A stretch of 64,000 bases of DNA from Gymnodinialimonas sp. 202GB13-11. Its GTDB lineage: Bacteria; Pseudomonadota; Alphaproteobacteria; Rhodobacterales; Rhodobacteraceae. A model generated the notes under the pieces. It was given only the letters and a program-made list of their open reading frames with translations. It ran no database searches and was not told the DNA's origin. The stretch spans positions 3,088,212-3,152,211 of the forward strand of contig NZ_JBFRBH010000001.1 of the NCBI RefSeq assembly GCF_040932485.1, written 5' to 3'. This document shows positions 58,468-64,000 of the stretch, piece after piece (the stretch's first letter is position 1; the number at the start of each line of letters is the position of its first letter). The position numbers and the translations under genes are program-made.

Positions 58468-59664
<1,197 letters not shown>

Positions 59665-59680
59665 TCAGCCGCTTACGATT

Positions 59681-59689
59681 TTATCCACA
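59681..59689 (+). promoter_or_regulatory. DnaA-box-like nonamer at the end of rnhB
   Basis: TTATCCACA, an exact match to the high-affinity DnaA box, with an inverted partner TGTGGATGG (7 of 9) starting at 59698. It includes the rnhB stop codon and lies about 30 bp upstream of the ccrM -35. It may link ccrM to DnaA, or be chance. Confidence 0.4.
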
Positions 59690-60280
59690 CAATATCTTGT
59701 GGATGGGGGCAAAGCTGCGCCGGTGATGTGGCGTCACCCCTAGATCGTGTAGACCGGCCGTGTGTTTTGCTGTGCCGTAGCCCATGTTCGTCTCCCAACC
59801 GTAACCCGGATGCATCACCGCAAGCTCCTTCATCAGGGCGTCGCGCCGCACTTTCGCCACAATCGACGCCGCCGCGATAGAAACGGACCGACCATCGCCC
59901 TTCACGACGCAAGTCGCCGGGCACGGCAGGTCCGGCGGCACAGCGTTCCCGTCGATCAGGGCGTGGGTGGGGGCGGTAGCCAAACCGTCCATAGCCCGTC
60001 GCATTGCCAGAAAAGTCGCTTGCCGGATGTTGAGTGCGTCGATCTCTTCCACGCTCGCCCAACCTAAGGACACGTCCGCAACAGCCTCGATCTGCACAGC
60101 CAAGGCATCGCGCCGCGCCTCAGTCAGTTTCTTGGAATCGTTCAGCCCCTCAGGGATACGCGCCGGATCAAGCACAACCGCGCAAGCCGTCACTGGTCCG
60201 GCCCAAGGCCCCCGGCCCACTTCATCAACACCGGCGACAAAGCCGCCAAGCTCGGTTTCCAAAGAAAAGTCAGGTCCCAT
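59681..60280 (-). CDS. rnhB: Ribonuclease HII
   Basis: 199 residues. Removes ribonucleotides misincorporated in DNA. Catalytic Asp19 and Glu20 in AGVDEVGRGPWAGP, then LNDSKKLTEARR, LIDGNAVP and IAAASIVAKVRRD with the remaining acidic ligands. The start at 60280 fits family length; the ATG at 60322 lies in the loop of a terminator-like hairpin and is less likely. ccrM follows after 109 bp, an order also seen in Caulobacter. Confidence 0.94.
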   Translation of the reverse strand: MGPDFSLETELGGFVAGVDEVGRGPWAGPVTACAVVLDPARIPEGLNDSKKLTEARRDALAVQIEAVADVSLGWASVEEIDALNIRQATFLAMRRAMDGLATAPTHALIDGNAVPPDLPCPATCVVKGDGRSVSIAAASIVAKVRRDALMKELAVMHPGYGWETNMGYGTAKHTAGLHDLGVTPHHRRSFAPIHKILCG

Positions 60281-60296
60281 GTCCTGCGATGTGCGC

Positions 60297-60336
60297 CAAA
60301 GAAAGAGGCGACGCAACCGCATGGTCACGTCGCCTC
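60297..60336 (-). terminator. Probable terminator of the 150-residue secreted gene
   Basis: Arms GAGGCGAC (60305-60312) and GTCGCCTC (60329-60336) with a 16-nt loop, followed on the minus strand by TTTCTTTGG. The long loop makes it weaker than the others in the window. Confidence 0.55.
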
Positions 60337-60409
60337 GCTGCTCGGGTCGGCTACTGCCGCGCAGCTTGCCCGGCGATCTCACGCCACCGGACTGCGCCTT
60401 TGAATGGGC

Positions 60410-60862
60410 TTACCCGTGCGACCAACCGTGGTTGGCCAGGCATCGCGCGCCATAGATCTGGCGCTGGCCGCGCTGGGTCTGCACGGTCCGCAGGCAATTG
60501 GATGGCAGCAGATGCGCCTGTTGCGCGTGGTTCTGCATGCAGCGGCGCAAGTAGCCGCTGTAGTTGCCGTAATAGCCATGGCCCTGGATGTGGCAGCGCG
60601 ACGGTGCAACGCGGTGGTATTGCGGCTGGGGCTGAGGATGCGGCTGATGAATGACCGGCGGGTTATGACGGTTGCCATTGTTCCGGTTCGCCTGGCTAAG
60701 GCCATACAGAAGCAACAGACCGCCAAAGATCGCGGCGGCCTCTGCGCCTTGATTGCGGTGGTTGTTGGCCGCCGCTGGGGTTGCGGTTGCGGTGATACCG
60801 GTTGCCGCGAGAGTAAGGGCGAGAGCACCAGCCGTGAAGGTCTTGGAGAGATTACGAAACAT
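60410..60862 (-). CDS. Secreted Cys/His-rich protein of unknown function
   Basis: 150 residues. Signal peptide about 1-32 (SKTFTAGALALTLAATGITA, ending ATPAAA), then a hydrophobic helix near 43-58 (AAAIFGGLLLLYGLSQANRN), a low-complexity His/Pro/Gln segment (IHQPHPQPQPQYHR), and a C-terminal domain with four cysteines (PSRCHIQGHG, LRRCMQN, PSNCLRTV, GARCLANHG). The four Cys probably form two disulfides. No family is recognised. AAGGGA lies 8 nt before the ATG. Confidence 0.8.
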   Translation of the reverse strand: MFRNLSKTFTAGALALTLAATGITATATPAAANNHRNQGAEAAAIFGGLLLLYGLSQANRNNGNRHNPPVIHQPHPQPQPQYHRVAPSRCHIQGHGYYGNYSGYLRRCMQNHAQQAHLLPSNCLRTVQTQRGQRQIYGARCLANHGWSHG

Positions 60863-60984
60863 GTCTTGGGTCCCTTGTTTCGGTTGCGCTTGAGGGGTTC
60901 AGGTCTTGGGTTGGGGCGCACTCATTCGGCGCTTGTGGATCAACCCTCCCCCCTCGGCTCTCCGCCATGCAATTACGGCGGCGC

Positions 60985-61000
60985 GCTATCCGATAACGGG
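60985..61000. promoter_or_regulatory. TATCCGATAAC motif, copy 2
   Basis: GCTATCCGATAACGGG, 123 bp upstream of the 150-residue gene. The core TATCCGATA is a perfect odd-centred palindrome. CCATGCAA lies 12 bp before it, as also near the copy at 61656. Confidence 0.35.
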
Positions 61001-61006
61001 AACGTT

Positions 61007-61525
61007 TCACTCAACGATCACAGGGCCGATCAACGTGGGACGCAGTTCAAACACGTAGCAATCACCAAAGGGATTCGCGTCATCGGCATATGTGTCGTCC
61101 CACCCAAGGCACCGGTTGGTAACGACCCAGCCATCCGGGATGATTTGCGGAATCAGGCCGACATAACCGGGGCCGGGTATGCTGACTTGATAAGATGCAG
61201 TTTCGTCTCCCCAGGTGTCTGGCCGTGTCGACGACCAACGCAGAAAATCGATGTAACGCTCTGGTGCATCGATTTGCGTGAACACCCAATCCGGCACGTC
61301 AGCCGTCTCTGGCTGCGCGGGAGATGGCACAGCGAGCAAGACACTATCGATATCGTGCCAGACCAATTCAGCCAGTGGTGCAGGCCCGCCGTGGTAATGT
61401 TCCGACACCCAATCCGTGCCGAAGCGTTCAACGTAGTGCTGATAGTCTTGAAGGATATCTGCCGAGGCCGTCGACCCCGACGTCACGAGAAGAATCGCCA
61501 CAAGGGCGGAAAAGGATTTGGTCAT
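61007..61525 (-). CDS. Secreted protein of unknown function (172 aa)
   Basis: 172 residues with a signal peptide MTKSFSALVAILLVTSGSTA, cleaved near ASA. The mature protein is acidic and Trp-rich, with PDWVFTQIDAPERYIDFLRW and a C-terminal block DGWVVTNRCLGWDDTYADD with two cysteines likely bonded (RCLGW, DCYVF). No family is recognised. It is divergent from the 97-residue secreted gene and shares the TATCCGATAAC motif upstream. Confidence 0.75.
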   Translation of the reverse strand: MTKSFSALVAILLVTSGSTASADILQDYQHYVERFGTDWVSEHYHGGPAPLAELVWHDIDSVLLAVPSPAQPETADVPDWVFTQIDAPERYIDFLRWSSTRPDTWGDETASYQVSIPGPGYVGLIPQIIPDGWVVTNRCLGWDDTYADDANPFGDCYVFELRPTLIGPVIVE

Positions 61526-61655
61526 CGAAATCGCCTATCTGTAATCGCCAGCGGGCGGAAATGCCCAAGCGTGTGAAAAGGTGTTGTACGCGGCTGAAAT
61601 TGCCGTTGTGGCGACCTTCCCCAAATCCTGCCATGCAAGGCAAAAACGCCCCCCT

Positions 61656-61701
61656 GCTATCCGATAACAGGCCTGTGAACCGTCCCCCGTCATTGAATGA
61701 C
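61656..61701. promoter_or_regulatory. TATCCGATAAC motif copy 3 and a 13-bp dyad
   Basis: GCTATCCGATAACAGG at 61656-61671, preceded 17 bp earlier by CCATGCAA, and a perfect dyad GTCATT-G-AATGAC at 61689-61701. Both lie in the 243-bp gap between two divergent secreted-protein genes and could be operators for either. The rest of the gap shows nothing. Confidence 0.4.
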
Positions 61702-61768: not shown

Positions 61769-62062
61769 ATGAAACGATTATTCAAATCCCTCCTCGCCGC
61801 CGCCGCCCTTACGGTCCTGGCCGGCCCCCTCCACGCCGCATGTTTTGCGGACTATCGCGCAAGGATGGATAACCCCTTGCGTCTGCATTACGGTGTGATC
61901 GAAGTGCCCCAAAGCGCATGTTCGGTCGGCGCCGCCTCATCCGTCGTTTCCGGCCGCCTTGCGTCACAAGGCTGGACGTTGGTGCAGGTGATTTCGGTTT
62001 TTGACGATTCCGGACTCGCCTCAAGGAGGGCGGATGCCGGACAATACTACCTCAGTTTCTGA
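61769..62062 (+). CDS. Small secreted two-cysteine protein
   Basis: 97 residues. Signal peptide MKRLFKSLLAAAALTVLA ending near LHAA, then a 73-residue mature part ACFADYRARMDNPLRLHYGV with Cys25 and Cys51 (SACSVGAASS) as a likely disulfide, and WTLVQVISVFDD and AGQYYLSF at the end. No named family, but the compact conserved-looking core suggests a folded domain. It overlaps the winged-helix membrane gene by 29 bp, so the two are translated together. Confidence 0.8.
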   Translation: MKRLFKSLLAAAALTVLAGPLHAACFADYRARMDNPLRLHYGVIEVPQSACSVGAASSVVSGRLASQGWTLVQVISVFDDSGLASRRADAGQYYLSF

Positions 62063-62756
62063 CCCGAAACTGTCGGTCGCTGACACGCGAATTGCATCCA
62101 CGCGTGTCGTTCAATTGGGTGTCTTGGCGGTGGTCGCGGTCCTCGTGGTCTCCGCCATTCTGCTTTTTGTGAACCTTCCCGACGCCGAAGCTTTCAACAA
62201 CGCCGTTGTCACGGTGTTTGAAGTCAACGACGTGCGTGACCCGGACGCGACCCGCGTTCTGGAAATCATGGCGCAGACCGGCACGACCTTCTCCAAGGTG
62301 CTCGCCAGCTATCGCGCAGTGATCTTCGTCCTGCTCGTCTTTGCAACCGCGCTTCTGGTCGCCTGCCTCGTCTTTCTTGTCACCATCGTCACCCTCAATC
62401 GCCGCATCGGTGAGATTGAACGTCAGGGCATCCAGGTCTCCTCCCTGATCTTGTCGCGGGAGGAGCGTGTGGTGCTCATCAACAATCTCGAATTCAAGCT
62501 GACCGACGCCGCGATGGAGACGCTGTCGGTGCTGGCCGAGGCACGTCTGGATGATGACGTGCTGTCAGGTGCGCAGATTGAGGCGATGGTGTCCGGCAAG
62601 TCTGAAACGGATGTGGATGAAGCCGCCGGGGCCACCCGCATCAAACGCCTGCGTGATACGCTCGGCAACCAGATGGTGTCCGAACTGCTTGTGAAAAATA
62701 TCGCCCGGCGCGGCTACATCCTCGCCATCGACAAAGACGTCATCAAGATGGTCTAG
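62034..62756 (+). CDS. Membrane-anchored protein with C-terminal OmpR-type winged helix
   Basis: 240 residues: TM1 about 26-48, a periplasmic loop 49-94, TM2 about 95-122, then a cytoplasmic part. Residues 150-232 follow the OmpR/ToxR DNA-binding pattern: LTDAAMETLSVLAEA, ATRIKRLRDTLGN as recognition-helix end and LVKNIARRGYILAI as the wing. Classic ToxR/CadC proteins have the winged helix at the N-terminus, so the order here is reversed. AAGGAGG 5 nt before ATG 62034 is the strongest site in the region. Confidence 0.82.
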   Translation: MPDNTTSVSDPKLSVADTRIASTRVVQLGVLAVVAVLVVSAILLFVNLPDAEAFNNAVVTVFEVNDVRDPDATRVLEIMAQTGTTFSKVLASYRAVIFVLLVFATALLVACLVFLVTIVTLNRRIGEIERQGIQVSSLILSREERVVLINNLEFKLTDAAMETLSVLAEARLDDDVLSGAQIEAMVSGKSETDVDEAAGATRIKRLRDTLGNQMVSELLVKNIARRGYILAIDKDVIKMV

Positions 62757-62759
62757 GGC

Positions 62760-63671
62760 GTGAGCGACGCGCCCTATCCGGGCCTCGCGCCCGACCTTTG
62801 GGATTTGGTGGCCGACATGGCTGCCGATCCCAACCCCGTGCCGGAGCATGAGCGGCCTCTGGAAACCCTGCGCGCTGCGGTCGCCCGGATGGAGGCGACC
62901 TTGCCGCCCCTTCCCCAATCGATCAAAACCTGCGACTGGACCATATCCTGCAACGGGCGCGACGTGCCCCTGCGCAGCTATACCAGCCCCAAACGTGCCA
63001 AAGGCACGATGCTCTACTTCCACGGCGGCGGGTGGGTGCTCGGCTCACTCAAGGGCCACGATCTTGTCTGCGCCGACCTTGCACTGGAAACCGGCCTCAC
63101 CATCGTCAGCATCGACTACGCCCTTTCCCCAGAACATCCCTATCCGGCTGCGTTGAAAGAAGGTCTCGCCGCCATTGCGCATCTGGCCGAACAAGGCCCG
63201 CTCTGGCTCGGCGGCGACAGCGCCGGGGCCAACCTCGCCCTCGGCTGCGCGCTGCACCTGCGTGATCACAACGCCCCTGTGCCGGACGGCCTGTTTCTGA
63301 TCTACCCCGCAACGGACCGGACTTGTGCTTCCCCGTCCCACACCCACCACGCGAGGGCGCCCTATCTCTCCACCAAAGTCATGCACCGCTGCTGGCACGA
63401 ATATCTCGGAGCCACGGCAGATGCGCCTTACGCCGACATTGCCCACAGCAACCTGCAAGGCCTCCCTCAGTCCGTGATCCTAACCGCTGAGCTCGATCCA
63501 TTGGTGGATGAAGGCGATGCTCTCGCCAGAGCCATCGCCGGTCACGCCACCGTCTGGCACGAACAAGCAAAGGGTCTGATCCACGGCTTCCTGCGCTTCC
63601 GTGCCACATCACCAACCTCAGACGCCGCCTTCCGCCGCGCCGCGCGCGCGCTCGCCGACCGCCTCACCTGA
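62760..63671 (+). CDS. Alpha/beta hydrolase of the hormone-sensitive lipase family
   Basis: 303 residues. Oxyanion HGGG at 88-91 (LYFHGGGWVLGS), nucleophile Ser154 in GGDSAGANLALG, acid in ELDPLVDEGDAL and His in GLIHGFL. An esterase acting on short or medium acyl esters. It starts at GTG 62760, 3 bp after the winged-helix gene stop; ATG 62817 is a shorter option. Likely part of the same transcript. The end is followed by element C. Confidence 0.9.
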   Translation: MSDAPYPGLAPDLWDLVADMAADPNPVPEHERPLETLRAAVARMEATLPPLPQSIKTCDWTISCNGRDVPLRSYTSPKRAKGTMLYFHGGGWVLGSLKGHDLVCADLALETGLTIVSIDYALSPEHPYPAALKEGLAAIAHLAEQGPLWLGGDSAGANLALGCALHLRDHNAPVPDGLFLIYPATDRTCASPSHTHHARAPYLSTKVMHRCWHEYLGATADAPYADIAHSNLQGLPQSVILTAELDPLVDEGDALARAIAGHATVWHEQAKGLIHGFLRFRATSPTSDAAFRRAARALADRLT

Positions 63672-63761: not shown

Positions 63762-64000
63762 TCAGCAGTAAGGTGCGCCGCGGCCCCAACCGGCTGCATC
63801 GGTGATCGAGCCGTTATCGGCGTCGGTCGCACCCGTAGCGACACCACCGCTGCCGCGCGGGCAGGAACCGGCGTCGGTCCAGGTGCCATTGTCGATGTCA
63901 GCGGCCGCTGCCGCCGTCGGGATCGTTGCAACTGCACCGGCTGCGCCACCGGCAGCCATCAGGCCAAGGAAGCCACGGCGGCCCTTCGGGCGATCCGTCG
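63762..64000 (-). CDS. Tat-exported microprotein with two DxDNG repeats (partial)
   Basis: Partial; the start codon lies beyond the right edge. In the visible 78 codons the N-terminus reads TDRPKGRRGFLGLMAAGGAA, a twin-arginine signal, with cleavage probably near AAAAA. The mature part is only about 45 residues and holds two imperfect repeats, DIDNGTWTDAGSCPRGSGG and DADNGSITDAAGWGRG, ending APYC. DxDNGxxxD resembles calcium-binding loops. An internal ATG at about 63959 would lose the Tat motif. No family name is certain. Confidence 0.7.
   Translation of the reverse strand, partial: TDRPKGRRGFLGLMAAGGAAGAVATIPTAAAAADIDNGTWTDAGSCPRGSGGVATGATDADNGSITDAAGWGRGAPYC

Follow-up and report, generated by a model that had tools for sequence, protein, structure and literature searches.

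Closest described systems

In the co-component systems VtrA/VtrC, ToxR/ToxS, TcpP/TcpH and PsaE/PsaF, the transcription factor gene comes first and the partner gene lies downstream, often with overlapping reading frames (PMC9214523). The transcription factors carry their wHTH at the N-terminus, with a single TM and a C-terminal domain in the periplasm, and the partners often resemble lipocalins (PMC9214523). A survey of transmembrane transcription regulators (TTRs) covered 50,302 proteins in which a DNA-binding domain is combined with a TM; its accessible part notes associated proteins for ToxR-type regulators, and contains no regulon, operator or partner for a layout such as the one described here (PMC10269533).

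The P0001/P0002 cassette occupies positions 61769-62756 of the window (the whole stretch of 64,000 nucleotides that was analysed; Table 1). The window spans 3,088,212-3,152,211 of contig 1 in a 4.0-Mb genome; among named relatives, Roseicyclus and Roseibacterium are the closest. Like the co-component systems, P0001/P0002 is a two-gene cassette with overlapping reading frames (29 nt here), encoding a tethered wHTH regulator (P0001) and a secreted, predicted periplasmic partner (P0002). Unlike in VtrA/VtrC, the partner gene lies upstream of the transcription factor gene instead of directly downstream, and mature P0002 is a 73-residue bbaba domain, not a lipocalin-like barrel. P0001 also departs from the co-component transcription factors in carrying its wHTH at the C-terminus after two TMs, which enclose a periplasmic loop of 46 aa. 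Given these differences in domain order, gene order and partner fold, the cassette is not a member of the ToxR/ToxS or VtrA/VtrC systems. Moreover, unlike the fast-evolving virulence cassettes, P0001 is a near-universal single-copy gene of its family.

Similar to CadC, P0001 has an OmpR-type wHTH on an inner-membrane protein, but its domain order is reversed and a large periplasmic sensor domain is missing; it shares the OmpR-type winged helix of ToxR and CadC and lacks their N-terminal wHTH and single TM. With the OmpR/PhoB-type response regulators (VanR, RitR and RstA) it has in common a C-terminal wHTH and an RLRxxL recognition helix, whereas the receiver is replaced by a histidine-kinase-like TM1-loop-TM2-stalk and there is no receiver phosphorylation site. 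The protein is laid out as a small input module of the histidine-kinase type (TM1-short loop-TM2-stalk) followed directly by a response-regulator output domain. With a DNA-binding domain and two TMs in the same polypeptide, P0001 is a TTR by definition, for which one TM is enough, and since the family falls below the Pfam cut-off, the TTR survey may have missed it. Literature searches found no description of a P0001/P0002 system.

Table 1 Features of the cassette and its surroundings, in window coordinates
Feature	Position	Strand	Evidence or remark
CcrM-like DNA methyltransferase and rnhB	58468-60382	-	conserved divergent neighbour pair
q150, 150-aa secreted four-Cys protein, conserved divergent neighbour, candidate target	60410..60862	-	relatives' loci, alignment
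Second site 0, GTAATTGCATGGC on -, 21 bp from second site 1	60964..60976		pattern search
Second site 1, GTTATCGGATAGC on -, q150 promoter	60985..60997		pattern search
Lineage-specific 172-aa secreted protein, between q150 and P0002	61007-61525	-	element on both sides
Candidate operator site 0, GCAAGGCAAAAAC (consensus GACAGGCAATAAC), degenerate in the window	61635..61647		comparison of relatives
Candidate operator site 1, GCTATCCGATAAC (consensus GTTATCSGATAAC)	61656..61668		comparison of relatives
Candidate operator site 2, GTCATTGAATGAC (consensus GTTATTGAATAAC), 33 bp from site 1	61689..61701		comparison of relatives
P0002, 97-aa secreted protein, predicted signal peptide residues 1-23, bbaba fold	61769..62062	+	translation, alignment, AF2
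P0002 C25	61841-61843	+	invariant, 59-row alignment
P0002 C51	61919-61921	+	invariant, 59-row alignment
P0001 Shine-Dalgarno AAGGAGG, within the P0002 reading frame	62023..62029	+	AAAGGA-type profile kept, 67 relatives
P0002 end/P0001 start overlap, 29 nt, out of frame	62034..62062	+	conserved in relatives
P0001, 240-aa membrane-tethered winged-helix regulator	62034..62756	+	translation, Pfam, AF2, VIA
P0001 TM1 core, residues 28-46	62115..62171	+	hydropathy; AF2 helix 11-47
P0001 predicted periplasmic loop, residues 49-94, helical hairpin	62178..62315	+	AF2, hydropathy
P0001 TM2 core, residues 96-114, continuous with helix 70-130 into cytoplasmic stalk	62319..62375	+	AF2, hydropathy
P0001 winged-helix DNA-binding domain, residues 138-234; RLRxxL recognition-helix hallmark 205-210	62445..62735	+	Pfam, conservation, AF2, VIA
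Hormone-sensitive-lipase-type esterase gene	62760-63671	+	begins 3 nt past the stop codon of P0001

Architecture of P0001

The original prediction described a 240-residue protein with two membrane helices first and an OmpR-type winged helix last, and translation, hydropathy, Pfam, AF2 and VIA all agreed with this description. The two hydrophobic 19-mers have Kyte-Doolittle means of 3.15 (28-46) and 3.16 (96-114). The 46 residues between them form an acidic loop and the flanks on the other side are Arg-rich, so that, by the positive-inside rule, both termini are expected in the cytoplasm (N-in/C-in). The predicted reversal of the ToxR/CadC layout was likewise recovered, with N-terminal TMs and a C-terminal wHTH in both the hydropathy profile and the AF2 model. 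This model, built from 61 sequences, has a mean pLDDT of 77.6 (mostly 80-90 in the wHTH core and 55-64 near residues 211-230) and contains helices at residues 11-47 and 53-64 and a continuous helix at 70-130, followed by the strand-helix order of OmpR-type domains.

P0001 matched the whole profile of Pfam PF00486 (Trans_reg_C) with an E of 9.5e-5 and 22.8 bits in the protein search, 3.4 bits short of the curated cut-off of 26.2 bits, and reached 25.1 bits in the genome search; the profile was matched by 42 of 61 P0001 homologues. VIA aligned residues 135-234 to PDB chains with Z scores from 11.3 (RitR) to 9.2, including VanR, PhoB, CadC (5ju7, Z 10.6) and ToxR. The AF2 model and the VIA comparison with the PDB thus identify the C-terminal domain as a winged helix and not another fold. 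The RLRxxL motif and the helix preceding it are nearly invariant across homologues. A PDB sequence-profile search found no relative of P0001, and naming by NCBIfam was rejected, the matches being response regulators below threshold.

P0002 and the gene overlap

P0002 was modelled by AF2 with a pLDDT of 87.8 overall and 90-98 in the mature part, which is made up of three strands and two helices. Nothing significant was found for this fold with Foldseek (best E 0.42), and the best VIA hits in the PDB (Z up to 5.5) were mostly ribosomal or RNAP small subunits, with no clear match among them. A PDB sequence-profile search also found no relative. Assignment to DUF4177 was rejected as weak (15.7 bits and E 0.019 versus a curated cut-off of 25 bits), this profile being matched at E ≤ 1 by 7 of 59 P0002 members; a weak match to PepSY_2 was rejected as well. 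In addition, P0002 was rejected as a lipoprotein, as no lipobox precedes C25 and position -3 is not L.

The 29-bp overlap of P0001 with the gene for a small secreted two-Cys protein, noted in the original prediction, measures exactly 29 nt in 66 of the 79 named loci and in no fewer than 26 of 30 relatives. The ribosome site of P0001 indeed lies inside the end of the P0002 gene, and a purine-rich Shine-Dalgarno sequence is kept in relatives. Since both the exact length and the Shine-Dalgarno sequence inside the P0002 frame are conserved, the overlap is evidently not due to chance. A shorter P0002, ending about 18 residues earlier in ..LLKVLSV, was found in 11 loci (L094, L095, L101, L112, L115, L121, L130, L131, L142, L087 and L088), among them several of Roseovarius, Planktotalea and others; there, the 29-nt overlap is gone and P0001 starts elsewhere. 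In the midpoint-rooted P0001 tree, the short forms fall inside the long-form group with four changes, two of which are forced by well-supported branches. The tail and the overlap therefore look ancestral and appear to have been lost a few times.

A compact one-component envelope sensor had been proposed for this pair of genes. The membrane-tethered regulator and the translational coupling between P0002 and P0001 are well supported, whereas the sensing role is something that we infer.

Distribution of the cassette

Of 391 Rhodobacterales genomes sampled, 344 (approximately 88%) carried P0001, as a single match in all but one of those listed, whereas none of 140 genomes sampled elsewhere in the class did. 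In a set of 61 genomes, P0002 was found in 30 of 30 with P0001 and 0 of 31 without it (Fisher 4e-18; the species are related, so that neither these counts nor the genome counts and Fisher value given below represent independent events). Moreover, 26 genomes without P0001 all lacked P0002. The two genes were thus together and adjacent in nearly all genomes tested, as anticipated. Wherever P0002 was found, it lies upstream of P0001; of the 80 named loci, one (L098) yielded no match to P0002. Locus L179, at the start of contig 4 of genome G419, matches P0001 weakly and over part of its length (E 1.3e-20), and its P0002 match is interrupted by a stop codon; it is a decaying or truncated cassette copy at a contig edge.

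The upstream neighbourhood is also conserved. In most of 81 loci, q150 lies upstream and divergent together with the genes for a CcrM-like DNA methyltransferase (69 of the 81) and for RNase HII (rnhB, 73 of the 81). The methyltransferase scored 633 bits with the NCBIfam CcrM model, below the cut-off of that model. The q150 protein combines a signal peptide with a hydrophobic segment and four cysteines that are invariant, and is nearly absent where P0001 is missing (1 weak match in 25 genomes).

A three-site element upstream of the cassette

A previously unreported element lies 5' of the cassette and has the form GACAGGCAATAAC-N8-GTTATCSGATAAC-N19/20-GTTATTGAATAAC, with three 13-bp palindromic sites (0, 1 and 2 in this order). 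The cassette shares this element with the divergent q150 gene, and the three sites, between q150 and P0002, are common to about 75 of 80 named relatives. With the distances left free at 17-25 and 28-39 bp, sites 0 and 1 were 21 bp apart in 75 of 76 promoters, and sites 1 and 2 were 32 or 33 bp apart in 67 of 76. The sites hold 1.5-1.6 bits of information per position versus 0.27-0.56 in spacers and flanks, and being far richer in information than their surroundings, they do not reflect simple shared descent of intergenic DNA. Identification as a CcrM site (GANTC) or a CenR site (TGA-N8-TGA, PMC9275681) was rejected, as the sequence fits neither.

In the window, the gene at 61007-61525, whose homologues were found in L069, L073 and L201 alone, has an element copy on both sides, which hints that both transcription units, q150 and P0002, may use the element.

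Pattern searches provided the motif counts for whole genomes. The core of site 1, GYTATCNGATARC, has exactly three exact matches in the 4.0-Mb genome, two of them at the cassette locus and the third 134 bp before the gene for a 196-aa secreted protein; this arrangement recurs before a homologue of the gene in five species of the source genus. The composite of site 1-N8-site 0 was found in 76 of 121 genomes of the order, compared with 1 of 121 for a reversed control; outside Rhodobacterales, 7 of 140 genomes had it. It was present in 76 of 110 genomes with P0001 versus 0 of 11 without it (Fisher 8e-6), approximately one-third of the P0001 genomes giving no composite match at the cut-off used. 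In other genera, distal copies lie about 50-150 bp before genes for q150-like proteins, a lipoprotein and other signal-peptide proteins (L218, L249, L253-L257, L259 and L262). In the source genus, a composite lies about 155 bp before a dodecin gene in six genomes, in reversed orientation relative to that at q150 (L245 1983, L246 2011 and L232/L234/L235/L236 1501). Several distal copies have no evident target gene nearby. Co-occurrence and position suggest that P0001 acts on the element.

Proposed mechanism and alternative explanations

Our main reading, with a probability of roughly two in three, is that the cassette encodes an autoregulated membrane-tethered regulator with a periplasmic co-regulator and controls a small envelope regulon. 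In its mode of action it would resemble ToxR/ToxS or VtrA/VtrC. The short, helical loop that P0001 is predicted to expose to the periplasm would be acted on by P0002, or by its disulfide or ligand state, and the change, transmitted along the continuous TM2-stalk helix (residues 70-130), would determine how two wHTH domains are spaced or dimerise. In the membrane, P0001 might then form a two-fold symmetric dimer, which palindromic sites would suit, and bind adjacent palindromes from the same face of the DNA: distances of 21 and 32-33 bp equal 2 and 3 turns, which would place all sites on one face, with the DNA along the membrane. P0001 would raise the expression of the secreted-protein genes, the direction and the signal both being guesses, and feedback on the P0001 operon would come from site 2, which lies near the start codon of P0002. 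More specifically, and only tentatively at somewhat less than even odds, P0001 may be a histidine-kinase-like membrane module fused to a response-regulator wHTH and gated by a periplasmic disulfide protein, with a membrane dimer reading phased palindromes. If this holds, the fusion would be a family-wide core envelope-sensing circuit, with palindromes common to its own operon and a secretome regulon.

Contact between P0002 and P0001 is a step that we infer. VtrA/VtrC-type pairs form an obligate periplasmic heterodimer; here, a mirror-tree comparison of the P0001 loop with P0002 gave no excess correlation (partial r 0.05, 211 of 1000 permutations), so the co-regulator role of P0002 is argued solely from the cassette genetics. 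It is therefore worth considering, although rather unlikely, that P0002 is a mere target product of tethered P0001, an envelope protein whose gene overlap only fixes stoichiometry. The absence of a co-evolution signal would fit such a product, as would the few losses of the P0002 tail in which P0001 was retained and the finding that the other candidate targets are likewise small secreted Cys proteins. The one-to-one presence and absence of P0002 and P0001 and the conserved overlap are nevertheless stronger than for an ordinary target, an argument weakened in turn by q150, which nearly follows P0001 too. OmpR-type wHTHs usually bind direct repeats, and palindromic sites are unusual for them. 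Another trans-encoded regulator or a nucleoid protein could thus bind the element while P0001 acts elsewhere, the structure comparison for P0001 showing its fold only; we consider this improbable, given that the element co-occurs with P0001, stands on the P0001 operon itself and is kept on both sides where the 61007-61525 gene splits the divergent pair in the window lineage. That P0001 is no transcription factor, its degenerate winged helix serving protein-protein contact or membrane tethering of DNA, would accord with a Pfam score under the curated cut-off but appears very improbable: few parts of the P0001 family are as conserved as the recognition-helix region (EAAGATRIKRLRDTLGNQ), as a DNA-binding role predicts, and the domain aligns full length to DNA-bound structures.

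Rhodobacteraceae are a major marine family within an order that is dominant among marine bacteria, and nearly all members of the family carry the cassette. If our main reading is true, P0001/P0002 would represent receiver-less, reversed-order membrane-tethered regulation outside pathogens. P0001 is conserved enough for study in several tractable roseobacters, and the conserved triple site before the cassette and secreted-protein genes makes the putative envelope-to-gene circuit directly testable. Additionally, the cassette and its element offer a function hypothesis for several hypothetical secreted-protein families.

Genes downstream of the cassette

The genes 3' of P0001 were not conserved, and the esterase-like gene was rejected as a conserved downstream partner, its adjacency not being kept in relatives. 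At 63762-64000 on the minus strand, a reading frame for a short Ala-rich secreted peptide with the imperfect repeats DNGTWTDAGSCPRG and DNGSITDAAGWGRG runs past the end of the window.
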